Shown here piece by piece: positions 1 to 64,000 of a stretch of DNA of 64,000 nucleotides. The first letter of the stretch is position 1. The number at the start of each line of letters is the position of its first letter. The notes under the pieces were generated by a model. The model saw only the letters and a program-made list of their open reading frames with translations. It did not search any database and was not told the DNA's origin. This DNA is from Cliona cf. orientalis. Its lineage: Eukaryota > Porifera > Demospongiae > Clionaida > Clionaidae. A program made the translations under genes and the position numbers. The stretch lies in assembly GCA_963930775.1 (NCBI GenBank), contig OZ005705.1:4774001-4838000 (forward strand), read 5' to 3'.

Positions 1-320
1 GTGGGACACTAAGACTACTGTATGACAGTAACACAGTGGGACACTAAGACTGGGACAGTATGACAGTGTGACAGTAGGACACTAAGACACTAAGACAGTG
101 GGACAGTAAGATAGTGGGACAGTAAGACAGTGGGACAATAAGACTGTCTTATGGTCCCACTGTCACTGTCCCACTGTCTTAGTCCCACTGTCTTAGTATT
201 CCACTGTCTTAGTGTCCCACTGTCTTAGTGTCCTACTGTCACACTGTCATACTGTCCCAGTCTTAGTGTCCCACTGTCATACTGTCCCGCTGTCTTAGTG
301 TCCTAGTATATCACTGTCTG
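1..320. repeat. Satellite-like repeat arranged as a long palindrome
   Basis: Short units of the GGGACA-GTAAGACAGT type run forward from 1 to about 145 and as their reverse complement from about 146 to 310. Positions 34-88 and 222-276 are perfect reverse complements over 55 bp. The unit length is irregular, so this is a degenerate tandem repeat that has been inverted on itself. It could fold into a long hairpin. No coding sequence is seen here. The array may continue to the left of the window. Confidence 0.85.
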
Positions 321-570
321 TGCACTACATACATGTATACATAGAGATAATTGATAATAATACATAACATACAGTGTCATAATAATATAATACATGTAGT
401 ATTATTATGATGACGTCATTTCAGTACCCCCTAAATGTGCCATGGCGCCACCAGCCCAATTTCCTGACTAAACGATAATGTAATAGTAAAACTTAAAACT
501 TCGATCCTGGCTGAATCCACAATAAGATCTGATCACTAGTACATGTATGTAATATATTTGTATGCTACAG

Positions 571-6453
<5,883 letters not shown>

Positions 6454-7330
6454 CTAGTCACGTTGCAGTAATAGTTCATTTCTGTGGACAAAGGTGATCT
6501 ATCAGTGAGCATAGACTGACCCTGAGCAATGCTTACTGTTCATTTTTTTTGTATATAATATTAAGTCATTAACATGTAGGCTATAGCATGTTGCATTTAA
6601 AACAGTTGATTTGTGTCCAGAGTCCAGACTCTGTATGGTACTCAGTGGTGATGGTAGATAATGCTAATGGGTATTAGCAAGGGTTTGCACTCTCTATTCC
6701 ATTATCAGACCAGTTTTGGAGATTTTCTTATTGAGCAACTGTCAGGGGTGCTGGTATGTTTTGATCTGCTAGCAGGATTCACTTTCAGAAACATTCACGT
6801 TATGTGGTTATTATAAATTTTGCCTCCGATCTCCCCACAACGCTACCACTCAGCAGTTACATAACGAGCCACCAGGTAGCTAAGTGTGATCAAGGGCTTA
6901 TCGGCGGCTCGATAAGCCCTTGGTGTGATTGTGTATACGTATGACATTGTAAGGGAATCTCCTTCGCCATTGTCAGGCATTGCATGCTAACCAAGAATTG
7001 ATCTTCATTTTCAAAGCCTTCTAATGTTTTATGTGATGTGCTGTGAATAGCTATGACTCAATTAACTGAAGGATTTGGTGTATGATGTCGTTATTTCTGT
7101 ATGTACACCATGCTAACTGTCCATAGCAATTGCCAGTGCTCCACTATAAGTACCATTATGCAGCAGCGTAATCCTTTATGATTGTACATGTACTGATATG
7201 CACAATTATTTATAGTGTGACCATGCATGTTTGTTCCATTACCGGGTAATTAACCTCCAGGCCAGATGCCATTGCATTGCATATTGCCGGTATCATGTCA
7301 CGTCATATGCTATGACGTTTAAAAATAACC
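6454..7330. other. Spacer between SLC10A7 and the VWA gene
   Basis: No exon recognised. It holds the probable 3' UTR of SLC10A7 and a short hairpin at 6891-6921 (13-bp arms CAAGGGCTTATCG and CGATAAGCCCTTG). The rest is AT-rich sequence without visible structure. Confidence 0.6.
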
Positions 7331-7378
7331 ACTTCCGGTTCCGGATCTAGGCGGCCGGCGGCCAGCGCGCCTATAAAA
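7331..7378 (+). promoter_or_regulatory. Core promoter of the VWA gene
   Basis: A TATAAAA box at 7372-7378 lies 93 bp before the start codon at 7472. Just upstream is a GC-rich stretch with ACTTCCGG at 7331-7338, which resembles an ETS-type site. The local GC content is well above the surrounding DNA. Transcription would be expected to start near 7400. Confidence 0.6.
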
Positions 7379-7471
7379 AGTAGCTGGCTAGCTATATAGC
7401 TGTTGATATGATCGAATACGTATATATATACACTGATTCAGCAGAAACCCGAAATTACTGAACGAGCCACA

Positions 7472-10400
7472 ATGTACGGTCGACGAGTAGCAGCGCAGGA
7501 GCAAAACTTCGGCTTACTGATTGCTGGTAAAAACACGAAGGTGCCTCTGAAGGAGGTGACGGTGAAAGCGCAGCTGAGGGGCTACCTGGTCGGCCTGGAC
7601 TCCACCCTCAAGTACAGCAACGACACTAGCAACCCTATCGAGGTAGTCTTTCGCTTTCCCATCGACGAATCGTTTGCCGTTGTAGGCCTAGAGGCTGAGA
7701 TTGGAGGTAGAAGGATCAAGGCCGAAGTGAGGGAGAAGGAAGAAGCTAAACAGATGTACGATGACGCCATGGCGAGCGGCTTTACTGCTGCCTACGCGGA
7801 AGAGAAGTCTAGCGACATCTTTAGCATCTCTTTGGGCAACCTGCCGCCCCAGTCGGAGGCAAAGTTGCACCTTAAGCTTGCTGGAGAGCTACCTATAGAT
7901 GCAGAGGGTGCTGTGCGCTTTTCACTCCCTGCTGTATTGAAGCCGCGGTACACACCCTCTGGGTCTACTGATCCCCTCGGGCCCATTGGAGCTGGGGATG
8001 GCAGCAGCGTAGCTCGAGGAAGTGTGTCTGCAGTCTTCAACTTTGAACTGGATGCTCTTGATGGGGCATCGGTTTCGCACATCACCTCACCAACTCACAC
8101 CATCACCACGCAGACCAAATCTGGACACATCCACGTCACCCCTGGAAGTGCCACGCCCCTCGACAAAGATCTAGTGGTGCTTGTCCACCTCAATGAGCCA
8201 CACTCTCCCAAAGCTATCCCTGAGCTTGGCGACCACACGCAAAGTCAAAAGAAGTTCATGGGATCCCCGGCTGTCATGCTCAATTTTTTCCCAAAATTTG
8301 AGAGCAAGCAAGCAGCGTGCGAGTTCATATTTGTTGTGGATCGCAGTGGCAGCATGAACGGCTCCTTCATCCGGAGTGCCAGTGAGACACTGGTCCTCTT
8401 CCTGAAGAGCATCCCTCCAGGCTGTAGCTTCAACATCATCGGATTCGGCTCAAGCTACAGGACACTATTCCCATCGAGTGTGCAGTACAACCAGAAGAAT
8501 CTTGATGTGGCTATCCAACATGCTGAAACTCTACAGGCCGATCTTGGAGGAACAGAGCTGCTCTCTCCATTGAAGTACGTCTTCAGTCAACAGCTGTTGC
8601 CTGGCCTTCCCCGGCAAGTGTTTGTTCTCACCGATGGCTCTGTGTCCAACACCAATGCGTGCATTCAGGAAGTGAAAAACAATGCCAAACGTTCAAGGTA
8701 CGGGCTACATTATACTCTTATTCATTGCCAAAGAAGATATGGTGGGTATAGTTTATTCATGAGTAGAGGATTTGAAGATATTTTCTTTTGTGGGTTCTGG
8801 CCTTATTAGCTCAGTGTGGAATGCAAATTGTGTGTGATTAACCAGTATGTTTACTCTGTCCAGGGTATTTACCTTTGGTATTGGCTCTGGAGCGTCGACT
8901 GCGTTAGTCAAGGGTTTGGCCAAGGCTGGAAATGGAACTGCAGAGTTCATTCAGGAAGGAGAGAGGCTACAGCCCAAGGTACGTAGGTGGATGGTCGTAT
9001 ATATATATGTCTATATACATGTAGTAGTAAGGCCACACCAGTATCAGGGGAATGAAACAGGCTTAGTAGGTTGGAAACTGAATAAAATCAATGCACTTGA
9101 GTGCACAACCCTCACTGCTACACATGCATGTATGCATGACTCATGCGCGTGTATAGCATATGGCTCACTGTGTATGCTATCAGGAGTATTGAACTACATA
9201 TAATAGTTATCTGACAGTAATTGGGGTGCATGAGATGCATGGTCGAATGCACCCCAATTACTGTCAGATAACTATTTTGTTGGTAGTTGACCTATGTTCA
9301 TCATTGGCCTACTTTGTGATGACCCAACCCCTTCCCATAGCCGGCAAATTGCCTATAAAAACTTTGGTTGCTAAGCAACTACCAACAAGTTATGGTAGGA
9401 TGGTACTGTTCTAGGCACCTGGCTATGTCACTATATCATATAGACAGTTACTGTAAGCTTCTGTAAACATTATAGCCACTGCCTATTTGACAACTGACCA
9501 GCAAAGCACAGAATGGCAATCAGTCATGTAGCTGAGGTAGGTGCCTTGTAAACACAGACGGGCAACAGCTACACGCTCTGGGTAGGACTTAACATGACCT
9601 TTTATGTTGGGTATACCTCGAATGCGTACTTTCTCTCAGACAACCCTTACCATTTAGCATAGGAGGGCTGCGACGGACGGATGGACAAAATCACCAAACG
9701 ATAGTAGTAACTCCTCTGCCTACACTTTGCCACAAGGGTTATTTAATGTAGAGCTCTCCAGAGTACCTACATGTACATGTATCCTGTGTGCATACATAAC
9801 AATAATTAGTCATACTATAATTAAAATTTGATGACCCTTGCCTACTCTAAACTCAGTCTTGTCCCCAGATAAGGGAAAGCACTGCCTTTTGAAGCAGAAG
9901 GAGGTAAGTTTTCCCATGTTTTTGACACTACGATGCTGCCTAGATCTCTAAATCTGATGATTTTTGTACTGACCAACACACTTTACCCGAGTGAGGTACT
10001 CAATGTCATTTTTATCTTTTAAAGGTCACTTGAACTATAGGCTTAGTACAATAATTATACTCGAGGTTATAATTGCACTTTGACCTTTATTTATTTGTGG
10101 AATCCACATGGTGGGTCACTGGGATCACTTGAGAAAGAGTGTGGTCTTAGGGATTAATGATATTATGAAGTAAAACACAAGATCTAATTTAGCGCAAGAA
10201 AATTTGCGTTCTAGGACTCTTAATAATTTACCAGAAATCGTACAAAAATTAAAATCATTTTTTAGCTTGAACGCGGTATGTACAGTTGAAAGTTTTCACA
10301 GTTGCCAGTCACAGGCGTAATGAATGTAAAGCCCAATGCATATAAATATTTTTAATGGTCTATACACACAAAATTTAACAATAAAGCCCTAGCACATTGT

Positions 10401-12244
10401 TCTTTAAATGCACAGTGCATGGCATACACCGTGATTGGAGACTGATATTTGCCGTTTGATCGCATACTCAGTACAAGTTGCACACCAGTGATATACATGT
10501 ACAATGTCACGTGAGCCCACATACTGTTATCACAGTGCAGCCATATTGAGTCAGTCCAGTACAATAGCGCTGCCACTGAATGTATACACCCAGTGTCTCA
10601 AGCAGAGCCAATTGCTCTTCCTTGTATCCTTCAAGAGCTCACCAGGAAGTAAAGAAGGCGGCAATAGTTGGAAAATAATGCCAGCACTAGATTTCAATAG
10701 AGTCTACACTTTCACAGCCTTTTCTTGTGTTCTGTTCCGTCAAAAAAATTGTGGAGTGTGACTGGCTTATAACAACCACGTCCTTTCTTGCGGTTTACTC
10801 ATGACTACAAGAATCGAGTTATTGTACTCAACCTGCTATTGAATTAGTGGTACCTACTGTCAGTCATTAACAATGGCCCTTAGATTTATGACTTCGAGAC
10901 TGCATAATTACATCTGCAATGTAATTTTAGGTTATTTCAAGTCTCAAGCGTGCTCTTCAGCCATCTGTGACAGACCTGGAAGTCAGCTTTGATGTGACCT
11001 CAGGATTCGATGCTCTTGAGGCACCTGATAAACTACCAACGATTTTCAACAGTGATAAGACTGTCATCTATGGGATATTCAGGAGCAAAGCAGCCTCTGA
11101 TCAGCCGCTGGAAGCCGGTGTGAGTGGAACTGCTACATTGAAGGGAAAGGTCCTCGGAGTTTCTTTTGAGCACACCATTCCGTTTGAAATTCCAGTTCAT
11201 TCAGATTCTCCGGACTCTGATTCATTTCCAATGCCCATTGTCCACCACTTGGCAGCCAAGTCTCTCATCCGTGACTGGGAGCACAAGGAAGGATGGGCCT
11301 CAACTGCTCCTGAAAGTGAGTGCAAGAAGGAGATCATCCGAGTGAGCGTTGAGTCCAGTGTCGTATCAGCACACACAGCCTACATTGCTGTTGATGAGGA
11401 TCAAGATAAACCAATAGAAGGTGCCATCCAGACCTGGGACCTCAGTGCTACGATGGGTGCTGGTGTAGGGGCCTTTGGAATTGGTGGGGGGTTCAACATG
11501 CGTGGTAGAGGTGGAATGGCATTTGGTGGACCTCCTCCACCACAGTCATTTAATTCATATGCAAGTGCTGCAGTTCCTGCTAGTAGATTAATGCTTGGTG
11601 GGCCACCTCAAATGCAGCAGCAATCTATCTTTGCTCCCTCCTTTGCTTTCGGTGGTGGTGGTGGAGTTGGTGCTGCGTCACTTGGTGCACCACCTCCTCC
11701 CGCTGGTGGTATGCTTGCTGGACCACCACCACCACCAGCTCCATTAATGATGGCTGCTGGTCCTCCTCCTCCTCCTATTGCACGGAATTCAGCATATGGA
11801 GCTCCACCCCCACCAGCATTTGCTGCTGGACCTCCTCCTCCTCCAACGGATAATCTCATTAGCTTCAACAGTGCTCCGCAGTTTCACCAGGTAGCATCAC
11901 AGAGGTCTCGGTCAATGATGCAAGCGGGAGTACGTGCCAGCAGTATCCATTCTCCATCTAATGAGCTGACTCAGCTCATTTCTCTTCAGCAAGCTGAGGG
12001 ATTCTGGAGTCTTGATAAAGTGTCCAGCTTCATGAAGAAAACCATCTCCTGCCCCATTCCTGGTGTCGATCCTATCATCTGGGCTACAGTTATTGCCCTT
12101 GTTCTTCTGGAAAGCCGATTCTCCCAGCAGCAAGATGAATGGGAGCTAGTAGCGATGAAAGCGGAGACCTGGCTCAGTATGCAGCGTCTGCCTGTTGGCT
12201 TTGATGTTCAAAAGCTGAAGGAAGAAGCCAAGAAGCTTGTTTAG
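7472..12244 (+). CDS. VIT and von Willebrand A domain protein, isoform with terminal exon 1 (Pro-rich linker)
   Basis: Exons 7472-8697, 8864-8978 and 10931-12244 join in frame to 884 residues. Residues about 10-130 form a VIT (inter-alpha-trypsin) domain. From about 285 there is a VWA domain with an intact metal site, DRSGS starting at residue 290, plus GGTEL and LTDGS. Terminal exon 1 (from residue 448) begins VISSLKRALQP and ends in a helical domain rich in WATVIALVLLES and WELVAMKAETW. This order fits the VWA5A/PARP4-like family of cytoplasmic proteins; the C-terminal part resembles the vault-interacting region of PARP4 (inference). The middle of this exon is a Gly/Pro linker with repeated GPPPPP, a likely profilin or EVH1/SH3 ligand. 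The start is the first ATG after the TATA box. No catalytic domain is seen. Confidence 0.9.
9202..9276. repeat. Perfect 30-bp inverted repeat hairpin
   Basis: Arms 9202-9231 and 9247-9276 are exact reverse complements around a 15-bp spacer. It lies in the intron between VWA exon 2 and terminal exon 1. The rest of this 1.95-kb intron holds a copy of repeat family R1 near 10186-10280 and no recognised exon. Confidence 0.85.
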
Positions 12245-12511
12245 CTTCAGATGAATAAGGATACTTTTATGTAGTGATAATAGTGTTATAGACGCCATCT
12301 ATAAAGAATTTTTATTAATTTTGTTATAACCTCATGCATCAGGAGCACATTAATTTTAGTTCCTGTCAATATACAAAATAATTATTAATGCTTTGATTGT
12401 GTATTAATGTTTGTTGGATAGAGGTGGATTTTCTGCTTTCCTTATACCATTGGACTCTTTGAGTTAAAACTAGCTTGCATGGTTACTTCTATTAATTTAT
12501 ATACTACTTCT

Positions 12512-12715
12512 GGTTGTTTCAAGTCTCGTGCAAGTGAGCTCTTCTACCCTAGCCCTGCAACAGACGTTGAAGTCATGACCTCGGGGATTCGTTGCTTTTG
12601 AGGCGCACCTGATAAACTACCAATGATTATCGATGGTGATAAAACTGGATATTCTGGGGCAAAGCAACCTCTGATCAGCCACTTGCTTATTAAAATTTTA
12701 GCCACAGATATTTTC
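12512..12715 (+). pseudogene. Relic A of a VWA terminal exon
   Basis: The first 170 bp or so match the start of the terminal exons (GTTTCAAGTCTCGTGCAAG, then the region for EAPDKLP and a truncated middle), with stops and frameshifts. The 3' half is missing. Relic C at 16018-16110 shares its altered sequence, so the two descend from one decayed copy that was duplicated. Confidence 0.8.
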
Positions 12716-12876
12716 ATGTAGAACCAGTTTGTGTGTGTGTGTGTATGTTTTTTTTTTTTTTTTTGCTACTCCTCTTTGAATTAATTTTAGTTACTGGTTG
12801 CTGAGGTTAGGTGGACTGCTAATAGCATGATAATTTATTTGACACTCAACGCTTGCCTTTGTACATAATATTTCAG

Positions 12877-14004
12877 GTTATTTCAAGTCTCAAGCGTGCT
12901 CTTCAGCCATTTGTGACAGACCTGGAAGTCAGCTTTGATGTGACCTCAGGATTCGATGCTCTTGAGGCACCTGATAAACTACCAACGATTTTCAACGGTG
13001 ATAAGACTGTCATCTATGGGATATTCAGGAGCAAAGCAGCCTCCGATCAGCCGCTGGAAGCCGGTGTGAGTGGAACTGCTACATTGAAGGGAAAGGTCCT
13101 TGGAGCTTCTTTTGAGCACACCATTCCGTTTGAAATTCCGGTTCATTCAGATTCTCCGGACTCAGATTCATTCCCAATGCCCATTGTCCACCACCTGGTA
13201 GCCAAGTCTCTCATCCGTGACTGGGAGCACAAGGAAGGATGGGCCTCAACTGCTCCTGAAAGTGAGTGCAAGAAGGAGATCATCCGAGTGAGCATTGAGT
13301 CCAGTGTCGTATCAGCACACACAGCCTACATTGCTGTTGATGAGGATCAAGATAAACCAATAGAAGGTGCCATCCAGACCTGGGACCTCAGTGCTATGAT
13401 GGCAGCTAGTGAAGGAGGATGGGGATATGGAGGAATGGCAGTCAAATATGCCAAGAACGTCAAGTACAAGAAAATGGGTGCAGTCACGCGCATGGCAGCA
13501 GCACCACAACAGCTAGTACAGGGGGAACGTCGAAGGGCTAGTAAAGGAATTTCTGCTCCGAGAGGTTTACGTGCAGCTTCTTCATCTTCCAGAGGAGCAG
13601 CACCTCCTCCTCAAAGCTTGGAGTGCCTTTTCGAGGCTAAGCCAATGATTAAGCTTGAATCTGCAAAGGAAAAAGGACCAGCTACAGCTAGACTAAAATC
13701 TTCTGGTGGATCTCCTTCGGATGAACTGACTCGGTTCATTTCTCTTCAGCTGGCTGAGGGATTCTGGAATCTTGACAAGGTGTCCAGCTTCATGAAGAAA
13801 ACCATCTCTTGCCCCATTCCTGGTGTTGATCCTATCATCTGGGCTACAATTATTGCCCTTGTTCTTCTTGAAAGCCGATTCTCCCAGCAGCAAGATGAAT
13901 GGGAGCTAGTAGCGATGAAGGCAGAGACCTGGCTCAGTATGCAGCGTCTGCCTGTTGGCTTTGATGTTCAGAAGCTGAAAGAAGAAGCCAAGAAACTTGT
14001 TTAA
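12877..14004 (+). CDS. VWA gene alternative terminal exon 2 (basic linker)
   Basis: A second complete terminal exon follows an acceptor ending ATATTTCAG. It starts with the same phase-0 codons (VISSLKRALQP) and ends with the same EEAKKLV and stop. Splicing from the donor at 8978 would give 822 residues. The first roughly 180 codons and the last roughly 80 are nearly identical to terminal exon 1. The linker is unrelated: GGWGYGGMAVK followed by a Lys/Arg-rich stretch with RMAAAPQQLVQGERRRASKG. There is no upstream VIT/VWA exon copy of its own, so it must use the shared 5' exons or be silent. The upstream ATG at 12853 lies in intron sequence and is not a likely start. Confidence 0.82.
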   Translation, partial: VISSLKRALQPFVTDLEVSFDVTSGFDALEAPDKLPTIFNGDKTVIYGIFRSKAASDQPLEAGVSGTATLKGKVLGASFEHTIPFEIPVHSDSPDSDSFPMPIVHHLVAKSLIRDWEHKEGWASTAPESECKKEIIRVSIESSVVSAHTAYIAVDEDQDKPIEGAIQTWDLSAMMAASEGGWGYGGMAVKYAKNVKYKKMGAVTRMAAAPQQLVQGERRRASKGISAPRGLRAASSSSRGAAPPPQSLECLFEAKPMIKLESAKEKGPATARLKSSGGSPSDELTRFISLQLAEGFWNLDKVSSFMKKTISCPIPGVDPIIWATIIALVLLESRFSQQQDEWELVAMKAETWLSMQRLPVGFDVQKLKEEAKKLV

Positions 14005-14250
14005 GCGGATAATTTTACTATAATGCTGTTATAATTTTAATTGGTTTTTTATCCCCCTGTTTACCCTGTGAGCTTTACATAATCTCACGCACTGCATGCT
14101 AACTCAGAGTAGGTACTGATTTTTTTTTTTTTACTTGGTTAATCATTTCTGTGGCCAGGGTGAACTGGAATTGATTTTGCTACGCCATTTGTTATGTGAT
14201 TGTCTATAGCTAGCTACATCCCTCATGTATGTGCACGTTTTTATGGTGTC

Positions 14251-15110
14251 ACAGGCTAGAATGACTCCCAGGCTAGAGTGACTCCCCAGTCATTCTATAG
14301 ATCTAACCTAAGGATGAAATGACTTCCCCCCCCCCCCCCCCCCAGGAGGAAATAATTCCCTGTGATAATTGGAATTTTGCCGTTGTCTTCACACCCCTGC
14401 AGCTGAGTAGCTGCTCTGGACAATCCAGAGGCCCCTGTGCATGCAAAAATGATGTACATAATACAAAAAGAAGCCTTATAGAATCCTTTAAATAAGTTGC
14501 CATTGGCCTTTGCCTCTAAAGCCTGAGCCCCTCACTTTCGCTGAGCGTCCATCCCTTTTTGTGGTTTGATGTGCAAAGGTCAATGATCTCTTGAGTCTTG
14601 ATTCTCAAGACCTGTCAAACAGCACCTAGCTATAGCGAATTCAGAATAACACTCTGCAATCAAAATTTTAATATGATAGCCAACTATGGAAGAAGTAAAA
14701 AAAGTAAGGTACCCAGAGAGCCTTTACATCAGAGAAAAAACAAACTTTCGACGAAGTGCAGACACTCTGAAATACATGGTGGCCTGTGATGGCTGTGATT
14801 ACCGCATGGTTGTATGCATGTGTCAATGTGCACCACAGGGAGATTGGTATGTTGTTCAAACTGTGAAAAACATGAGTCTATAGCTACGTGGCATTAGACT
14901 GAAGTATAGTAACAGAATCCTTTACCCTGGCAATAATAGTTGCATCAATTATTTTGTAGGGGAGTGATTTTATCCTGGAGGGAGTCATTTATTCCTTAGG
15001 TGAAAATGACTGGGGATTCATTTCTATACCTATTGGTGAAAATGAAGTGGGGTCACTTTAGCCTAGGGTAGAATGACTGGGGAGTCATTTTGAGGGGGAG
15101 TCACCTCCAT
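14251..15110. mobile_element. MITE-like element with GACTCCCCAGTCATTCTA ends
   Basis: Blocks of the type GTGACTCCCCAGTCATTCTA near 14278 and their reverse complement (GTAGAATGACTGGGGAGTCA near 15069) bound about 860 bp. Each end carries several diverged copies of the unit. A poly-C run of about 20 lies inside the left end. No gene is recognised inside. Confidence 0.6.
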
Positions 15111-15176
15111 CTATGACAATGGTACTCAGATAGTCTACAACCTTGGTATAATTATAGTATTTTGAGTGTCGACTCT

Positions 15177-15775
15177 CAAGACTTAAATGTCTTTAGCCAT
15201 CTGTGACAGACCTTGAAGTCAGCTTTAATGTTAACGTTATCTCAGGATTCAATGCTCTTGAGGCACCTGATACCAGGAGTAAAGCAGTCTCTGATCAGCC
15301 GCTGGGAGCCGGTGTGAGTGGAACTGCTACACTGAAGGGAAAAGTTGGGGTTTTCTTTTGTATAGCTATAATATTATCATAAAATTCCTGCTCCTACTAC
15401 ATATTTGATTCTGATTCTCTTCCCATGTCCATTCCATACCACTCAGTCTGCTAGACTCAAATCCTCGTCTGATGAGCTGACTCAGCTTATTTTCTTCAAC
15501 AGGCTGAGGGATTTTGACATGAAGTCTCAATGATAAGGTATCCAGCTTCATAAAGATGAAGAAACACTAGCTCTCCAGCTCCATTTCTATATGGTACCAT
15601 CTGGGCTAAAGCTGTTTCCTTGCTCTCCTGGAAAGCAGATTCTTCCAGCAGCGAGATGAATAGAAGCTAGTAGCGATGAACGCAGAGACCTAGCTCAGAA
15701 TGCAGTGTCTGGCTGTTGGCTTTGATGCTCAAAAGCTGAAGGAAGAAGCCAATAAACTAGCTTATAGCCTCCAAA
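15177..15775 (+). pseudogene. Relic B of a VWA terminal exon
   Basis: It contains the TDLEVSF, EAPD and LGAGVSGTATLKGK regions, then a deletion. It resumes at the conserved SSDELTQL and WELVAM region and runs to the 3' end. Stops, frameshifts and loss of the middle show it is dead. Its 3' flank (CTCATGCATCAGGAGCACAT) matches that of terminal exon 1, so it is the decayed duplicate of exon 1. Confidence 0.85.
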
Positions 15776-16017
15776 GGATAAGGACATCATTCACATAGAA
15801 AGATTTTGCTACCATGGCATTCCCTTGCTGTTTAATTTAACCTCATGCATCAGGAGCACATTTGACTCCGATCCTGTCAATATTTAAATATGCAAAAAAA
15901 TCTACTTTGATGGCTAATTATTTTGATAGTGTATTTGATCAATGTTTGTTGGATAGTGGTGGACTTTCAGATTTCCTTACGCCAACAGACTCGTGAGTTT
16001 TTTGCTCTTGCATGTTT

Positions 16018-16110
16018 TTTACTTCTGGTTATTTCAAGTCTCGTGCAAAAGAGCTGTTCTACCCTAGCTCTATGACAGGTCTTGAAATCATGACCTTGAG
16101 ATTCATGTAG
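16018..16110 (+). pseudogene. Relic C of a VWA terminal exon
   Basis: A short fragment starting GGTTATTTCAAGTCTCGTGC shares altered bases with relic A. It sits in the same position relative to relic B as relic A does to terminal exon 1. Confidence 0.75.
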
Positions 16111-16272
16111 ACATAATGCTGTAGATGTTTTTTTTTTGCCTTACAGTCATTCCTCTTTGAATTAATTTGGTCAGTGGTTGCTAAGATTTATAGGTGGACT
16201 ATTATTAATAGCATAATAATTTATTTGACACTCGCCTTATTTCAATACTTGCCTATTTACATAATATTTCAG

Positions 16273-17370
16273 GTTATTTCAAGTCTCAAGCGTGCTCTTC
16301 AGCCATCTGTGACAGACCTGGAAGTCAACTTTGATGTGACCTCAGGATTCGATGCTCTTGAGGCACCTGATAAACTACCAACGATTTTCAACGGTGATAA
16401 GACTGTCATCTATGGGATATTCAGGAGCAAAGCAGCCTCCGATCAGCCGCTGGAAGCCGGTGTGAGTGGAACTGCTACATTGAAGGGAAAGGTCCTTGGA
16501 GTTTCTTTTGAGCACACCATTCCGTTTGAAATTCCAGCTCATTCAGATTCTCCGGACTCAGATTCATTTCCAATGCCCATTGTCCACCACCTGGCAGCCA
16601 AGTCTCTCATCCGTGACTGGGAGCACAAGGAAGGATGGGCCTCAACTGCTCCTGAAAGTGAGTGCAAGAAGGAGATCATCCGAGTGAGCATTGAGTCCAG
16701 TGTCGTGTCAGCACACACAGCCTACATTGCTGTTGATGAGGATCAGGATAAACCAATAGAAGGTGCCATCCAGACCTGGGACCTCAGTGCTATGATGGCA
16801 GCTAGTGAAGGAGGATGGGGATATGGAGGAATGGCAGTCAAATCTGCCAAGAATAAGAAAAAGGGTGCTGCACCACGATACCTAGTACAAAAGGCACGTG
16901 GTAAGGCTGGAGGAATTCCCCTAGCAAGTGCTCGTCTGAAACGTTCTGGAGCAGCACCTCCTCCTCCTCGAAGTGATTATAATTGTGAGGGCCTTTTCAA
17001 GTCTATGCCAATGATGAAGCTTGAGTCTGCAATGGAAAGAGGGCCAGCTACAGCTAGACCAAAATCTTCTGGTGGATCTGCTTCGGATGATCTGACTCAG
17101 CTCATTTCTATTCAGCTGGCTGAGGGATTCTGGAGTCTTGATAAAGTGTCCAGCTTCATGAAGAAAACCATCTCCTGCCCCATTCCTGGTGTCGATCCTA
17201 TCATCTGGGCTACAATTATTGCCCTTGTTCTTCTGGAAAGCCGATTCTCCCAGCAGCAAGATGAATGGGAGCTAGTAGCGATGAAAGCGGAGACCTGGCT
17301 CAGTATGCAGCGTCTTCCCGCTGGCTTTGATGTTCAGAAACTTAAAGAAGAAGCCAAGAAACTTGTTTAA
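16273..17370 (+). CDS. VWA gene alternative terminal exon 3 (basic linker)
   Basis: A third complete terminal exon has the same acceptor context (TACATAATATTTCAG), the same phase-0 start and the same C-terminal EEAKKLV. Splicing to 8978 would give 812 residues. It is closest to terminal exon 2: both introns upstream share TTTATTTGACACTC, and both 3' flanks share GCACTGCATGCT. The linker again differs (KSAKNKKKGAAPRYLVQKAR, then an RLKRSGAAPPPP stretch). The long ORF beginning at 16174 includes intron sequence and is not the true start. Confidence 0.82.
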   Translation, partial: VISSLKRALQPSVTDLEVNFDVTSGFDALEAPDKLPTIFNGDKTVIYGIFRSKAASDQPLEAGVSGTATLKGKVLGVSFEHTIPFEIPAHSDSPDSDSFPMPIVHHLAAKSLIRDWEHKEGWASTAPESECKKEIIRVSIESSVVSAHTAYIAVDEDQDKPIEGAIQTWDLSAMMAASEGGWGYGGMAVKSAKNKKKGAAPRYLVQKARGKAGGIPLASARLKRSGAAPPPPRSDYNCEGLFKSMPMMKLESAMERGPATARPKSSGGSASDDLTQLISIQLAEGFWSLDKVSSFMKKTISCPIPGVDPIIWATIIALVLLESRFSQQQDEWELVAMKAETWLSMQRLPAGFDVQKLKEEAKKLV

Positions 17371-19169
17371 GAGGATAATTTTCACGTAGCTATATAATAT
17401 TATAGCGATGTAAATACGCTGCTATAGAGATTAATTTTAATCGGGTTTTTTTTTCATCTCACTGTTTTCCCTGTGAGCTTTACTTAATCTCATGCACTGC
17501 ATGCTGACTCAGAGTAGGTACTGGTAATATTTTCATTTCTGTGGCCAGGGTGAACTTGAATTGATTTTGCTACGATAATAATAGCACCATTTATTATGGT
17601 TATCTATAGCAGCTGCTACATCCCTCATGTACACATTTTTATGGTACAGGGTGGGGGGGGGGGGGGGGGGTGTGTTCATGTGCGATCGGTCTGTCTGCAC
17701 CCAATCCATACACCTGTGCTTCCTGTGAATATAATAATACTATGTGGTAGCAGTTACCATACCAACATAATTTTCAATCCCAAATTGTGGGATAGTTAGA
17801 GGGTCATTAGTATATTATTAACTGGTCAGTAGTGACTGCTACCAAAAGAGTTAGATGTTGGTTTCGCAATTCTACTCACAGCTTCACTGGTTTGTAGAAC
17901 CAACGTCTAACTATCATAATAATTATCATTGTTTACCTATTATAGCCTATCAAGGTGTTAACACCGTATGCACTAGTCTTTCTATTACACCCCCACAGAC
18001 TAGAAATTTAATTACCTGGAGATACCACTGAGTGTAGCATAACCAGGGACGTGACATAATAATGATCTTATACGTTAGAGAATACACATAGGGAAGTGCC
18101 ATAATAGACAGCAATATTAATCAGTGCAAGAAGTCTAGAATGGATTGGAAATAAAAACATTGTACACAATATTATGACACTGTGTGTGCCATAAATTTAC
18201 ATAATACCATAATAATATTATTAATAATTGCTGCAGTTCTTCATAATAGTGTTATGTTTTACATAATACACTTGTGTAAAAGGGCTTTAGAAAGTGTGTC
18301 TAGTATATTATTATTCTTGTTACATGTAAAATGCATGTGACGTGAGTGCATGGATAGCTCAGAAACTGCCTTCACAGCAAGTATTACTGAGCGGTGGATG
18401 ATGCATTGAGTGCATGCCACCAGTTACATGTATGTACTAAGTCTTATACTACAGGACCAAGAGCAATCATTATTATCATGACTGACAAATTGTGTAGAAT
18501 ATAATACTATATTATTACTATAATAATTATAGCCTTAATTCTCCTACGATGATTAAATGTTTACATCACCCTCTACTATAGAGATTAATAACTATGTGAT
18601 CTGCTATGAGAAAAGGGACCACTTGGGGAAGACTGTACATGTAGTATGACAATTTTTGTTGGTAATATTATATATCAGGACTTACTATCTACGAATGTAG
18701 CCGACATGACTGTATTGATGATGAAAGTCATGGGTCTGGAATGCAATGGATTATAGTCTCAGCTCAAGCTCAGTGGCATTTATTAGCACACTGGGTGCAG
18801 TGTGCACATAACAACCATAATAGTATAGTATTATTATGTGACCAGCTATGAGAAAAGGGATGGACCATTTGAGACTTTTATTTGGAGTATGCATGAAATA
18901 ATGTACTGTATATGACAATTTTTGTTCTATGGATGATAATACCCGGCCGTGGTATGCATTCATAATTTTTATAGAGTGTGCATGCATGCATTATTAATGT
19001 TAATTTTCCTTTTGTTATCAAATGAAAATTTTATCATTGTATATGATAATCTTGAAGACATGCATGCTCACATCAAAGTCAACTATAAAAATTTATTAGC
19101 CTACTAAGTTAAGGCTGTAATGATAAAAAAAACAATCTATCAATTGCGATGGATATTGTACCCTGATGG
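17371..19169. other. AT-rich spacer with repeats
   Basis: No gene seen. It holds the 3' UTR of terminal exon 3, a poly-G run at about 17648-17670, and two same-orientation copies of a CTATGAGAAAAGGGA repeat (about 18606 and 18846) that is also found at the ends of the element at 63596-63851. Confidence 0.6.
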
Positions 19170-36800: not shown

Positions 36801-38326
36801 TGGTCAAGTGTTTCATATAAACATCATGAGAATTCGATTTCTTACATTAAATTGGACCATACATTCATTAGAATAAGTTCAGTAATATTGTGCTAACACA
36901 CACACATACCAATAATGACAGGGATGACCCCGGAAACTTAACTGACTTCTGGTTAGTTTCTAATTACTCAGAAGAAGGTTGTGAGATCAACATTGAAGGA
37001 AGGAGCTTGTTCACTGTTGTTAGGTAATTTTACAGTTTAATATAGCCAAGTATAATTAATGCTACCTATTGGCATATGTGTTATATTCTCTCAAAATAAG
37101 TCCCCAGAAACCCTTTTTACCTCGTTCATAGTAATTATAAACATGCAGGATTTTTTGTCTGGACGGGGAAGTTTTGTAAGTGTGCACGAATAATTTCAGC
37201 TCAGCGAGAATCAACAAAAATGCTTTTATTCATAGTCTGAATCGTTTATCTATCAGGCAGTGATGGCCTATTGGTTTGGCTAGTATCATAGAGTTGGTCA
37301 TGTGACAGTAGCTCCAATTCTTACTGCTCTATTGGAGAACCGAGAGTAGACACTGTAGATAGCTGTATGGGGGTTGGTGGTGGGGGTTAAGGTCGTCTGT
37401 TAGAAGTAAGCTTATGTTCGAGGTGCATTGCTGCTGGAAAAAGGTTGGTCTTGTTTTGGGAGGATACGATATACTGCACTGTTTTGATATTGGTGGTGAT
37501 TAGGACACTCTGTATTCCGTTTAGATCCCTTGCCTCCAAAAGACTTGAGGAGAAGTCCCTTCCATCCTTCCAGAGGAAGCAGCTCACCAACCTAATCTCA
37601 CAGTTGGACATTGAGATATCCAAGCAGGATATATCTGACACTCACCAGAAGGAGCTCAGCAAACAGCGTGGCAAGGAAGTGGTCACCAGGTGCTTCCACA
37701 AGATGGGCATTGTGGTACCATATGACAGGAACACAGAGCTGGGATACAGACCACTGCCCCTTACTGATAGTAAGTCAACTGCTATCTCTAATCATATGTA
37801 TAGCTGAAAAATTTGCGCGTGGTGCAAATTTTTGTGGTTGTTGCCACGTCCGCCAAATAATCCTGCATGTGCCTAGTACGGGAACTATTTAAGGGCGGGG
37901 TTGTTTCGTTCAGCTCGAGCCTGTGGGAATAATTCAAGGGTGGAGAGATTTCAAGGAATACGGTGTCCATGTGGGAAGGGACTATCACTGCATCCCTTTC
38001 TCTCCACTCCTCTGTTTGCAGGAGAGCTGCGGAAGTTGCTGAATAAGATCGCCAACTGCTCGAGTGACAAGGCAAGGTGTGACCAAGCATTTGAGCCACT
38101 GCAGGAGATCATCACCTTTGTGCAGTTTGCCAATGATGAGTGTGACTATGGCATGGGCCTTGAACTAGGTCTGAACTTGTTTTGCCATGGTGACGTCTAC
38201 TTTCATAACGTGATTGGTCACTTATTACCCCTGGCTTATGATTTATTGCATAGAGAGGAGTATGGTAAGATTATACAGGAACACTTGAAACATAGAAATC
38301 AAACTCCACTTAATTTTAGACAGTGA
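33826..38326 (+). CDS. HPF1: Histone PARylation factor 1 with N-terminal PBZ zinc finger
   Basis: Seven exons join to 451 residues: 33826-33987, 34818-35032, 35229-35368, 35428-35614, 36922-37023, 37525-37769 and 38022-38326. HPF1 binds PARP1/2 and completes their active site so that serine is ADP-ribosylated. The core begins at about residue 145 ([12 protein letters not shown]) and includes [13 protein letters not shown] and [31 protein letters not shown] holds Asp389-Glu390, matching the catalytic glutamate pair of human HPF1. The first exon encodes a PBZ poly(ADP-ribose)-binding finger with Cys7, Cys13, His20 and His26 ([20 protein letters not shown], then YSH), absent from human HPF1. The linker has a PIP-box-like KGTITAYF (64-71) and an NLS-like PPTKRLKQE. 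The last exon could extend into an unseen intron, but the open frame ends naturally at 38326. Confidence 0.92.
34093..34487. mobile_element. MITE-like element, CCCCGC family copy 1
   Basis: The left end CTAGAGCTCTATAGAGCACA leads into TACCCCGC; the right end reads GCGCATGCGCGCGGGGTAA. Ends are inverted. It closely matches 53348-53761. It lies in HPF1 intron 1. Confidence 0.75.
35755..36392. mobile_element. MITE-like element, CCCCGC family copy 2
   Basis: It has the same ends as 34093-34487 (CTAGAGCTCTGTAGAGCACA and GCGCATGCGTGCGGGGTAAT) but a longer, different interior. It lies in HPF1 intron 4. Confidence 0.7.
36436..36870. repeat. Repeat family R1 copy split by an insertion
   Basis: 36436-36483 and 36822-36870 match adjacent parts of the reverse-oriented R1 copy at 28265-28372. 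About 340 bp of unrelated sequence separates them. HPF1 intron 4. Confidence 0.55.
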
Positions 38327-38902: not shown

Positions 38903-45888
<6,986 letters not shown>

Positions 45889-48343: not shown

Positions 48344-51300
48344 TTATTTGATTGCTCCATTTACAAGACTGCCATCCTCTGATGGACTCTGTATGCGAAT
48401 CTCAATACCAGTACTGGAGGTTGTGGAGATTTGATCCTCCTTTGGTTTTCTTAGCTTGAGCAGAGGAGAAGCTCTAGGGGAGGCACTTGGGGAGGCTTTG
48501 GGGGAGGGTCGTGGTGACATCTTGGATTTGTTCTTGTCACCATCCTTGAATTTCATCTTATTGGAGTCCAACTGCATTGCTAGTGCTTCAGCACTGACCA
48601 AGACATCTCTGTCGTTATTGGGAGACTCAGCTACCGTAGTAGCATTGGCTGTTTCATTGCTGGGTAGATCATGTGTCGATGTGAATGGGTTAAAATTAAT
48701 GTCCAGATAACCAGCGACGATCTCTGTATATTTGGATATTGTTACAACAGTATCACTGAAGGAGGGTCTGTCTTCAGGTTGTTTGCTCCAACAGTTCATC
48801 ATTAAAGAATACCTGGAGAGGGGAGAGAGAGAGAGAAGAGAACAGATGAAGAGAGAGAGACAGACTACCATATTATACTAATTTTACCCCACACGCACAT
48901 ATGCAGCAAGGGATAAAGTAATTAGTTGTGTCTATCGTCAGCATAAAAATCATCAGACCTGGAGATCTAGGCATCTAAGCACCTCATAAGCGTAACAAAT
49001 CAATCGAACTTGGTGCAAAACTAGCTTCAGTATGTTTCAGGATGCAGATGCAGCGTGCGGGGTATGTGCTCTACAGAGCTCTAGTTCCTCAACCAAAAAG
49101 TGCTCCCCGTATGGAAGGGCTAAAATAGCTGGTATAATACTGTGCATGCTCACAGCTGACAGTCATAGCCAGCTACAGCCGCAACAACTTTGGATTATCC
49201 CCATTACATGAACACTAAAGGGAATTTGTTACAGTACTCTGGAGGCTTATTGGGCCAACACACTTCATACATGTATATGCTTGGAAGAATGGAACTCATA
49301 GCCACAATTGTGGTATCCAACAAACCAAACTACTTCAGACAAGTTTCAAGCCGTTAGCTATTTGCTATTAGTCACCTATACTACTTTGAGTGGAGCTTCT
49401 AGCCACTAGGTAACTAGAGCTCTCTAGAGCATATACCTAACCCCACATGCACTGGATATTTGGCATCATAGCATACTGCTGTGTACATTGTACCATAGTA
49501 GCCAAGTTTTGAAGAGGAGAGACTGGGACAAAGTGGAAAATATAATTTAAGTGCGCGAAATTTTACGGACTACGCCCACTTTTGAGCGACCACACCCATT
49601 TTTGGGTGACTATTTACTGCCACACCCACTAAACTTCGAGATATACGGACTGAACTTTGATAATAGTACTGAGTTTATGCTTGTGCCACACCTCCATTTG
49701 TGTAATCGAGCTGGATTCTGGGACAATGCTGCAAAATCAGGCAAACCGGGACACAACCGGGACATAGGGCCAAATTCTGGGACTGTCCGGCCAAACTGGG
49801 ACACTTGGCAACTATGTTGTACATAGCCTGTACTGTACCTTCTTAAGTTTTATGATATTATGACAACCATTACCTACAATGAGTTCAAGCATGCATACCT
49901 AGGCGTCGTCACTAGGCATGGCTGAATAAGAGCAAGATTTGTTGCATTCATGGCCGTTATCAAGTTTTTTAAATTTGAAGCCAAAATTCATCAGTTGTTC
50001 ACCAGTTTTGATGGTATTTTGGCCCCCACTTAACATGTACCGTATAGCACTTAAATTTCGTGGGACCTAATTTTCGCTGTTTTCGCGGATACAGCGGCTT
50101 CCGCGAAAATTATTCAACGAAAATTTCCAATGCCCACGAGCGCGCGCCCATACCAGGCCGGAACCGCGAAATTTATTCAACGAAAACTTTGTAGAGAGCT
50201 ATCCGCGAATTAAGGCGCTATACGGTACTCCTAGCATACATGCACTGGCATGGTTTGCCATGATCAAAATTAATAGTACAGTTATCTACTATATTACAAC
50301 GCAGAGGTATACCCTCATGATTGATAGATTACTAGCCTGCTTTGTTACCCCACACTGCTAGGGGTGAAATAATTGGCTCTATCATTACAATAAATTTGTT
50401 GTTGTCTACTACATACAATCACCTGATCTCGACTATTAGGCATTTTAGTTGGTGGCCAATGCTCTCACAATAAGTTTGGCTTAGCCAATTAGGTACCAAA
50501 CAAATATCAAAGCCATGCAGAGATCCGTACTACCTATTTAATACTAAGTTGCATAAAACTTGCAGTTGTATGGATTTTATTATTACCGTATTTCCTCGAA
50601 ATCTTGCCGCACCTCGAAATCCCGCCGCCCTCGAAATCTCGCCGCATGAAAAAGGGTTGTCGGATTCAAAGTACGCGGAATGCAGGTGCACGCGTGCGAT
50701 TCGCACTATCAGCACATGCTAGCATTCAATTCTAACTAACGCACATGGACGAGTGCGCAGGCACGAGGCGGGTGAGTGGACTAGTCGACGCCCTCGAAAT
50801 CTCGCCGCCCTTGAAATCTCGCCGCAGAGTGCAGCAACTTGAAATTAAATCTTGCCGCGGTGAGATTTCGAGGAAATACGGTATCCCATGCATCGCAAGG
50901 AGTTAAGCAATCCATTTATATATCTGCTTGTCTGCCTTTTTATCCATCAGTCAGTCTGTCAGCACAAAATTGCCAGATATAATATAGTAGCGCTCACATT
51001 TCATCCGGGCAAGCTGCATTCAGTGGTTTGTTCAATCTCTGTTCAGTGTCGAGCATCTGAGAGAGCAGCAGAGGGTCCACCCCAGGATAGGGAGTCTTTC
51101 CTCCACTGAATATCTCCCAACATGTTACTCCAAATGACCACTGTTGGGAATAAAGAATAGTTGAGTACACAGTACCTTTAGAATTCGGCTCTAGTTTGTC
51201 CCCCCCCCCCCCCCCGCCCCATACACGTACCAAACCGTTAATTATTCTAATTCAATTGACCAGAGTAGTTTGCCTTAGAAGTAGAAGCAGTATTATTCTT

Positions 51301-54300: not shown

Positions 54301-57300
54301 AACAAGTTATATGAATTATAGCGAAATTACACAAAAGTAGGTTAGATCTAGCCATATTAGCTTAGAGTACTATCTACATAATTTTTGAGGAAGACAAGGA
54401 GGTCATACTATCTTACTACAAGTATGAAGGTTATTTCCAATGAAACTGTAAGCATAGGATGGTGGCACAAAAGTATACAAACAAGGACAATAGCTAGTGA
54501 TGGTATAATACAAGATGTTTGGTATTGACGTACATAAAAATTTAATTCTACTGGTACATTACAAGTACCCAAATCTAGGTAACTTTTAGGATTTCTAACT
54601 TGAATGTCCAGCAAATTTTGTATCTATCAAGTCCAAACATCTTCTGGATTTGGGTATTGTAACGTACCAGTATTATATATTAATTTCTTTGTACATGTCT
54701 GGGCCATGCCTACTTGTAGAGTCTACCAACTCTCTAACACCACATTAAAGAGTATGAGGTATCCTTTGGTAGCTTTAGGTAGTTGAGACCATTGACACTT
54801 TTATGACTAGGGGAAAATATCTATCCAACTCTATGAGTCTTTAATAGAAATGTTCGAATTCCATTGCATAGCCTGTTTGTTGCACACGTGATGAGTCGTT
54901 AGGCATGATAAATGGTGGGGCTTCACGAGTGCCTCCCCCATAAACACTACACCTACTAGACTGCCACACACTGACCTCGTTAGTACAGCCATCTGTAAGT
55001 TTCTTACAGTCTTCTTCCTCTTCGTCACAAACAGCAGACTGGCTAGGCAGATCACCACAATGACTATACACACTAGGATCACTACAAATGGCACGAGAAT
55101 CCCAATCACTATCCCTAGTATCCGACTCTCAGGACTTGGCATCTCTGTGACAGCAGTTGGAATATCTATTGGGAAGAGAAGGGGAAAGGAATGGACAGAG
55201 AGAAGAAAGAGGAGAGAGAGAGAGAGGGAGAGAGAGGGAGAGGAGAAGGGGATTTGAATAAAGTGGTATCCTCCTAGCGTGATTATCACTACTCACTTGT
55301 GATTTCAATTCCTGCATCGATGCAGCACGGAGCAAGGCCTTGAAGGAGGGATCCATCAGTGCAATTGACAGGGCTCAAATCTGTAAAGCTTAACATAGTG
55401 ATGACACTTCTCCACTGAACTGGGCAAATAGACTGAACATAGTGACATGCATCCGGACACACTGCCAGAGGGAGGTGGAGTTGGCCATTTGCTCCACAAG
55501 GGGCAAAGTAGTAGTGACACAAAAGTCTGGATATCAGATCACCACACTGTTCATCATCAATCAAGGAGGGACGGATCCTTTGGTTCAGTAGAGTGGAGAC
55601 ATACAACTGATTCATAGCAGTGAAGATGTAATCAGTGGATTCATAAAACTGATCACAGAGGTCATTGTCAGATTGTCGATGATATTTCTGACAGGTGCCA
55701 ATGCTACAGGTACAGATATTATAATACATATCGTTCACAGATACTTTATTTCCTTTACCTTCCAGCAGTAAGGTTTACAGAGCTACTGCCGTCTACTGAG
55801 ACTGTCTTGTTAGTGTGCTCGCTTGTGCACTTTGTGCTAAAATCTTTCCGCAATAATTATTCAATAATCATACAACTCATTTTAGTATTGAGTGAAATAA
55901 TGTACCTTGAGTAACACCACATATGACTCCTGCTTCTCGATTACTCACTAACGGGCAATTTATCCTTTCATTCACTGGATACTGACAGTCAAAAATATTG
56001 GACTCATTTCCAGTACAGTTGACATTGTTGAGAGCAAAATGCACTCCAAATGTTCTACCAAATATTGACCCGGTAGTAGCCACACCCCCTGCAAGACACA
56101 GACTAATGATAAGAAGGATATGGATCAAATATGAACAGCTTCTACCTGTGTATCCCAGCTGCCTGCAGACTATAGAGGCATCAGAGTCATCCCAGTTATC
56201 ATGACAGACAAGGCCCCATTGTCCAGCCATACACACCTCTACTCGACCAATTTCATCAGACAGTTCTCCACCTTGCAATCTCACATCGGTGTCATTACAT
56301 TCTGATACTAAAGTTTTTAGCACATTTGATACAGAAAAATTAATTTGGAACCCATAATAACTAGAGCTCTCTCGAGCACAAAACCCTCGGCATGTTGCAT
56401 GACATTAGCTACATGCTTCAACAGTTGCATGCAGAAAAGGGGGTATAGCTAAAGGGCAGGGACTAGGGTGAGGCTACTATATATAATACAAGTATAAAAA
56501 CAATTGAATAAAATTGAAGAATGAAGTAGGGATGGCAGGATCAAAAAGTACACAAACAAGAGATAATCGTATCTACTATACATCCCTACGCTTGCTTTTC
56601 TCGACTATTGTGCACCTATTAATCATGGTTGATGAGTGCAGTATGTGGGAGACATTAATTTGTACAGGTTGTTTCCTAGTTGTCACGATGGTTCGGGTTT
56701 ATTAGTTTGATTCAATCGTATTATTACTGCACCCCTCAAAAAGCAAGCGTAGGGATGTATAGTAGATACGATTATCTCTTGTTTGTGTACTTTTTGATCC
56801 TGCCATCCCTACTTCATTCTTCAATTTTATTCAATTGTTTTTATACTTGTTTCTGTTCTTTTTTATTGCACTTAGTGTAATTTATCAATGGTTTGCTCAC
56901 AACTTCTGATTAAGTGGAAGATGGGAGGTGCGCAAAATCCTTTGCCACGCCCCTCATTAACGCGTTCATCATAACTGATAATAATTATAGGATGACAAAG
57001 AAGGCTGCTTTAGGCGGCCCAAGTAGTGATGATACTCTTCTGCTTATATTAGGGAGAAAATTAAGCTCTAAGTTTTACTGTTGGCAGCAGCTAGCTACCC
57101 GGTATATTTTTATGATCTGTACGTTTACCGCTGCTCGAGCCCGGTTGCGCCTTCGTATCACAGTGACAAATTATGTCCACATCTATGATCGATCCCGGCA
57201 CTGGATCCAGCGTAGCACTAGCGCTGCAAGCGCTAGCGAGTAGCTCGCTTATGCCTAGCGCCTTACCGCTCCTCGAGCCTTGAACCTTCATATCCATGAG

Positions 57301-62826: not shown

Positions 62827-64000
62827 TTATTTGACTGATAAAAGTCCACTTGTGACACTGCCATCCTCCGATGGACTCTCAATGCGAATCTCAATGCCAG
62901 AAGTTGTCGATAGTTGATCCTCCTTCAACTTTCTTATCTTGAGTAGAGGAGAAGCTCTAGGAGAGATGCGTGGAGAGGCTCTGGGAGATGGTCTGGGGGA
63001 TGCTTTGGGTGATGCTTTTGGGGTGCCCCTTGGTGATTTGGATTTCTTCTTGTCCTTTGCCTGTTTGCTGGAGTTGAGTTTTACCAGCAGTTCAGCACTA
63101 ATTAATACATCTTTTTCGTCGGTGGGAGAATCAAGAGTAGTGGCAGCAGGTGAGTCGGTGTTTGTGAGATCATGTGTTGATTTGAAGGGGTTAAAATTGA
63201 TATCAAGGTAACCGGCAATGCATTCTGTGTAGTTAGAGACGGTAGTGACGATCTCAGAGAAAGGTGGTCTCTCGGCGGGCAGCTTGGACCAACACTTCAT
63301 CATTAAAGAATACCTAAATGATACATTATGCATTGTGCAGTGTAGCAAATACCAAATTCAAATGTGATGCAAGTAAATAATATTATAATAATGATGATAC
63401 CACGTACACATCAGTGGGAAATATGATTCCACTACAATTATATGACCAGTAAACCACAATTAGTGGGATAGAAATCTAGTCTACAGGTCCTACACTTAGG
63501 GGTTGTGTCACAGCACACACACACCAATCGTATATTCTTTGGACTGCAAGTCCAAGGTACAGATACGCTTTATTAAGTTATACAGAACCAATTTATATGT
63601 GACCAGCTATGAGAAAAGGGACCATTTGAGAGTTTTTTTTTGTTCATAGTATGTGGCTTGTTGCATGTATGGAGTAATGTATTGTTCATGTAGCTGATCC
63701 GCTCTGCTTGTGCCTATACATGCATAGCTAGGCTGTAGCTACTCACTACCAGCTACATAATTTTATTGAAAGCAAGCTAATTGGGCATAAAAATTGAATA
63801 CTAGCTATCATCGTCCGCAAATGGTCCCTTTTCTCATAGCAGGTCACATATGCTCAATTAGTACCAGGTAGGTATACTGCCTCTGTATGAACAGCTTGAT
63901 CATACCTACCCACTCATAGTTATTAATTGTACTCACATTTCATCCGGGCAAGCTGCATTCAGTGGTTTATTCAATCTCTGTTCAGTGTCTAGCATCTGAG
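62827..64000 (-). CDS. Receptor tyrosine kinase D, 3' end only
   Basis: The last exon 62827-63313 and part of the previous one (63937 to beyond 64000) match receptors B and C. The partial exon differs from the same part of receptor C at about two of 65 bases by eye. The last exon gives YSLMMKCWSKLPAERPPFSE (end of the kinase), then YLDINFNPF, an acidic stretch and a Ser-Pro repeat (SPRGTPKASPKASPRPSPRA continuing). It ends IEIRIESPSEDGS plus a short tail. The ectodomain must lie to the right of the window. It makes the family at least three in tandem. Confidence 0.85.
63596..63851. mobile_element. MITE-like element with CAGCTATGAGAAAAGGGACC ends
   Basis: The left end ATGTGACCAGCTATGAGAAA and the right end TTTCTCATAGCAGGTCACAT are inverted repeats, continuing with AGGGACCAT/ATGGTCCCT inward. 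It lies in the last intron of receptor D. Single ends of the family occur at about 18598 and 18836. Confidence 0.8.

Follow-up and report, generated by a model that had tools for sequence, protein, structure and literature searches.

A VWA5A-like gene of a sponge is likely to exchange the linker of its protein by means of alternative terminal exons, and, as the genomic sequence and its relatives suggest, several forms of a single protein are probably made from it. The gene lies in the 64-kb window that was analyzed (G000:C17:4774001-4838000, within a 216.8-Mb assembly). Downstream of one donor stand three homologous terminal exons that share a phase and have an acceptor and a stop codon each (3/3). 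These exons, designated here as tails or copies 1 to 3, differ almost only in a linker in the middle, and their ends are nearly identical. The exons and relics are listed in Table 1.

Table 1. Exons and relics of the VWA5A-like gene, with positions in the window.
Feature	Position	Strand	Description
Exon 1	7472..8697	+	ATG at 7472 opens the frame; VIT and most of VWA; donor AAG/GTACGG
Exon 2	8864..8978	+	End of VWA; phase-0 donor AAG/GTACGT, which can serve each tail
Terminal exon 1, A type	10931..12244	+	Constant N part, Gly/Pro-rich linker (~11450-11965), constant C part
Relic, 5' terminal-exon fragment	~12505..12683	+	12512-12683 is 72% identical to 10930-11109
Terminal exon 2, B type	12877..14004	+	K/R-rich linker (~13396-13725)
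Decayed terminal exon	15190..15764	+	All three frames interrupted by stops; linker largely lost
Relic, second copy of the 5' fragment	~16020..16096	+	84% identical to 12505-12581
Terminal exon 3, B type	16273..17370	+	Linker ~16792-17091

The head of the protein is encoded by exons 1 and 2. Pfam matches in the exon-1 ORF were VIT (4.3e-30 at 46-155) and VWA_3 (3.2e-21 at 305-435), and among named sequences the closest relatives are proteins of the sponges Ephydatia muelleri and Geodia barretti. The initial annotation had described the two 5' exons as single-copy, and this was confirmed, as tblastn (E <= 0.01) found no second head in the window. Among the tails, similarity to the head was not detected by tblastn between 8979 and 19500 even at E <= 10, and the search for head relics with blastn returned short matches only (best E 0.63). 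Because no trace of a head is present between the tails, the duplicated units appear to be terminal exons and not whole genes. Intron 2 also contains a MITE-like self-complementary stretch of ~100 nt (84%) at 9192-9288.

The three intact terminal exons reported in the same annotation were reproduced to the base. When joined to the head, they give proteins of 884, 822, and 812 residues, and all three frames are open with one stop each. Every tail is preceded by AG and starts with GTTATTTCAAG. No Pfam family was recognized in the three tail ORFs at E <= 1. No tail has an in-frame ATG in its first 100 codons, and the short open stretch that precedes copies 2 and 3 has none; together with the absence of head similarity among the tails, this indicates that a whole tail needs upstream exons. 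Canonical AATAAA occurs after the array only at 18150. Poly(A)-like signals at copy 1 are TATAAA, AATATA, GATAAA, and ATTAAA, and those after copy 2 are only AATACA and TTTAAA, more than 450 nt away. The scarcity of AATAAA says little, since three control genes from contig C5 of the same genome also have none within 1 kb. Two short repeats (83-88%) occur both beyond the array, at 18593-18883, and near the window's end, at 63596-63850.

The decayed tail and the two 5' fragments were absent from the initial annotation. The 3' flank of the decayed tail resembles that of terminal exon 1, and the end of copy 1 with its 3' flank (11957-12581) is 71% identical to 15468-16096. The neighboring segment 12755-14247 is 84% identical to 16128-17645.

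In each intact tail, a linker of 100-172 residues separates the constant N part (173 codons) from the constant C part (92 codons). Copy 1 carries a long, Gly/Pro-rich linker (A type), and copies 2 and 3 carry a short, basic linker (B type). At the 5' end the copies share 546 nt at 97% identity (97-98% in the first 300 nt), and at the 3' end 283-293 nt at 93-95%, a similarity far beyond chance. The dS values for the N part, linker, and C part are 0.05, saturated, and 0.23 between copies 1 and 2; 0.05, 2.1, and 0.14 between copies 1 and 3; and 0.034, 0.30, and 0.20 between copies 2 and 3. Gene conversion would keep the exon ends alike, although the low dS there may stem from another cause. The dN of 0.24 between the linkers of copies 2 and 3 indicates that the linker is under weak constraint. 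No indels were found in the N part between copy 1 and either of the other copies, or in the C part between copies 1 and 2. Between copies 2 and 3, 17 indels fall in the 342 nt of flank that align, versus 11 in 1,071 nt of the exon, and both exon frames are open despite these indels. Constraint on the intact tails is thus seen in open frames beside indel-rich flanks and in the broken frames of the decayed copy. The initial annotation proposed that different C-terminal parts are fitted to one head. The single head, the several maintained terminal exons, and the lack of a head relic among the tails agree with this proposal, but the C-terminal parts are not different as wholes: all tails share a beta/helix region and the C-terminal domain, and the linker alone changes.

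Both linker types are also present in relatives. Searching with copy 2 gave 155 proteins, the best 120 of which were listed; the best 30, three of them from this gene, were analyzed. Tails were typed as A or B from the K/R content of the linker, by which P0025 is intermediate. Contigs of relatives were told apart by their listed length, which also serves as their label. Among these best 30 tails, seven contigs hold at least two, and six of the seven hold both types (the contig of this gene, 3756, 4360, 392396, 1711061, and 155291), while 816868 holds two A tails. The nearest linker was of the own type for 30/30 of the best tails, with scores standardized against shuffled linkers; 97 of 224 A-B linker pairs also exceeded z 4. 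Linkers group by type across contigs, and the ends often group within contigs. In the N-part tree, whose support is modest, A joins B within 1711061 (100/98), 155291 (100/100), and 4360 (87/79), and between the JGI contigs 9511 and 10587 (100/99), and copies 1 and 2 of this gene join the B tail of 3756 (97/84). An exception is 392396, whose A tail joins the A tail of 342369, and homogenized N parts were not seen there. A minimum of 11 A/B changes is needed on the N tree and of 8 on the C tree. P0007 is the partner of copy 2 (99/97), and P0035 that of copy 3 (99/95); the nearest contigs could come from the same or a sister species.

AlphaFold models were obtained for copy 2 (alignment of 52 sequences) and copy 1 (42 sequences). 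In both, the N part is predicted to form a beta/helix region and the C part a helical domain (pLDDT 82-97 per ten-residue block), and the linker, with pLDDT mostly <50, is predicted to be disordered. Taken as a whole, both models are of modest confidence (mean pLDDT 67 and pTM 0.42 for copy 2; 63 and 0.38 for copy 1). The C-part profile matched 20/20 chosen relatives with a whole-sequence E <= 1.4e-11 in a database of 20. The match is a single stretch near the C-terminus in 17 of the 20, split in two VWA5B1 proteins, and internal in P0231. The tail profile matched one distinct PDB sequence, PARP4 (E 8e-16), mainly at 1041-1182; a second stretch at 1572-1639 is weak (7.1 bits, i-Evalue 29 on its own). 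PARP4 is defined by a PARP catalytic domain and a BRCT domain upstream of VIT. The gene described here shows no PARP or BRCT match at E <= 1 in the exon-1 ORF and three tail ORFs, and no stop-to-stop ORF of at least 120 aa is present in 1-7411.

The gene has two features of the VWA5A clade, VIT followed by VWA and the C-terminal domain shared with VWA5A. According to the available text of PMC10539598, the C-terminal domains of Dictyostelium Vwa1 and human VWA5A are homologous, and ITIH1 and the predicted Vwa1 have a part of the hybrid domain, a helix bundle, and the VITpt2 strand after VWA. By analogy, the N part of the tail may complete the fold of the head itself, in which case the linker alone would be exchanged. 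Section 22 of the same article places VWA5A and PARP4 in intracellular clades and the VWA5B clade outside the cell, and the available text of PMC13174449 names the MINT domain. With regard to the MINT-type C-terminal domain, through which vault-bound proteins bind MVP, the tail profile gave the weak PARP4 match at 1572-1639. Judged from its family, the protein would be intracellular. Of the receptor and adaptor readings in the initial annotation, the first finds no support, since VWA5A and PARP4, the closest families, belong to intracellular clades in the consulted part of PMC10539598.

Other ORFs in the window match different families. Two ORFs at 37391-38323 (+) match HPF1 (histone PARylation factor 1; 7e-16 and 6e-31). 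An SRCR domain (5e-19) adjoins an Fz match below the curated cut-off at 55292-56404 (-). ORFs at 38906-39460, 48347-48877, and 62830-63357 (-) match the last 23-24 residues of the Tyr/Ser-Thr kinase domain, below the curated cut-off; they are perhaps tandem kinase genes.

ORFs from elsewhere suggest that such tails are used by splicing. The search with the head found 1,103 proteins, the best 120 of which were listed; removal of 8 full-length proteins already among the relatives left 112 head ORFs. The end of exon 1 coincides with the break of the alignment (residues 395-415) in 104 of these 112, including the ORF of this gene, and among the tail ORFs the alignment begins at 441-465 in 106 of the 120 listed. 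Among the listed relatives with lengths between 600 and 1,100 residues, heads identical at 100% over 434-454 aa precede different tails within a single ORF in four JGI groups: P0132/P0133, P0135/P0138/P0139, P0136/P0137, and P0142/P0143/P0155. P0155 has no middle and little of the C part, and one group is Geodia-like, with a head 96.6% identical to that of P0141. The same is observed in annotated cnidarian proteins from Dendronephthya (P0145/P0149) and Oculina (P0161/P0163). The JGI frames run through both junctions, whereas most head ORFs cease to align at the end of exon 1, and the JGI ORFs therefore probably represent spliced RNA; they could also be intron-less paralogues or result from assembly mixing. 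For P0132/P0133 and P0142/P0143, the contig sizes differ by exactly the difference between the ORFs (78 and 33 nt), which suits shared UTRs but could also reflect internal alternative segments. In the other two groups the contig and ORF differences do not fit. The idea of a cassette system in the initial annotation gains from these proteins with a constant head and different tails, as well as from the two tail types common to other contigs.

Heads with at least 80% identity among those listed came from ten contigs, four of which also have listed tails. The ratios of heads to tails among the matches listed are 1:3 for the contig of this gene, 1:2 for 1711061, 1:2 for 816868, and 1:3 for 155291; the remaining six contigs are mostly short and have no tail among the matches listed. 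For distant contigs, where the counts are at least those given, the ratios are 1:1 (50186 and 541021), 1:3 (571090), 2:3 (404378), and 2:1 (1141903). A different arrangement is found on contig C5 of the same genome (G000:C5:6055908-6083774; L009, L011, and L012), where three heads and three tails within 40 kb form separate, complete VIT/VWA genes. Their heads are 90-91%, N parts 85-95%, and C parts 71-89% identical; in the linkers, the short stretches that can be aligned are 24-33% identical. In five of six Ephydatia muelleri VWA5A-like proteins (P0131 did not fit the motif and was left out), the corresponding values are 95-98%, 96-99%, 92-96%, and 16-84%. In both cases each divergent linker belongs to its own complete gene or gene model, whereas here one head is accompanied by three tails. 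The shared pattern of constant heads and tail ends suggests that linker diversity is a property of the family, and that the terminal-exon array is one way of housing it.

Several other explanations of the array were weighed. It is unlikely that a single tail is used and that the others are duplicates which have not yet decayed. Copies do die at this locus, as the two fragments and the decayed tail show, and divergence of the N parts is low (dS 0.03-0.05). This explanation does not account for the distinct A and B linkers common to other contigs, for the separate closest outside relatives of copies 2 and 3, or for frames that stayed open while the flanks gained indels. The extra tails could instead be silent donors, from which gene conversion refreshes the linker of the one tail that is expressed, as the homogenized ends would allow. 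A donor needs no acceptor, phase, frame, or stop, yet every copy keeps all of these, and with the nearest linker always of the own type no clear mixing of A and B is seen; such a role is quite improbable.

Even less probable is an origin of copies 2 and 3 as headless remnants of whole tandem genes, or their expression from promoters of their own. Whole-gene clusters of this family do exist on C5 and in Ephydatia muelleri, but the array region lacks any head similarity and none of its tails has an early in-frame ATG. A false tandem duplication in the assembly is scarcely credible in spite of the near identity at the start of the copies: change between the linkers of copies 1 and 2 has reached saturation, the flanks differ by ~9-18% (depending on aligner settings) and contain indels, relics lie between the copies, and A and B tails occur together on other contigs.

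Under the preferred explanation, alternative terminal exons of one gene, the donor at 8978 would be joined to any of the three acceptors, and the choice of acceptor would decide which linker (A, or B in two versions) stands between the two constant parts. In the simplest history, duplication of terminal exons would have been followed by one duplication of a block of an A tail, the fragment, and a B tail, with later decay of the second A tail. Selection would preserve all three reading frames and the difference between A and B linkers.

Tandem terminal exons are already known. In the available text of PMC9013439, Drosophila pip and PGRP-LC are described with tandem 3' terminal exons and mutually exclusive choice; like the gene described here, they combine common upstream exons with a set of homologous terminal exons or 3' variable regions. 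The sponge array, whose alternative use is predicted from DNA, differs in that the ends of its tails are nearly identical and only the linker varies. No competing RNA structure was found here: docking/selector pairing did not exceed that of shuffled sequences for copies 1 and 2 and was borderline for copy 3. Members of the VWA5A clade (VWA5A/BCSC-1 and Dictyostelium Vwa1), as far as the consulted sources describe them, share with this gene the order VIT, VWA, conserved post-VWA region, variable stretch, and conserved C-terminal domain, and here three terminal exons behind one head would exchange that variable stretch. No report of a terminal-exon array in sponge VWA5A genes was found in the parts of the literature covered by the search, and within that coverage the linker-swapping array is a new variant.

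Known tandem alternative exons mostly swap part of a folded domain, whereas the piece swapped here is a predicted-disordered linker between near-constant parts. The choice of tail may alter the partners or the spacing of one intracellular adaptor. As a tentative generalization, sponge VWA5A adaptors could diversify by a constant-variable-constant scheme, in which the folded ends are gene-converted and the disordered linkers are driven apart into discrete types, housed as alternative terminal exons or whole-gene clusters depending on the lineage; a single adaptor, perhaps vault-associated or immune, might then address many partners. The array is a natural test of the role of the linker in VWA5A-type proteins. 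It also tests whether a splicing array can stand in for a gene cluster, and vice versa, as a source of the same diversity.
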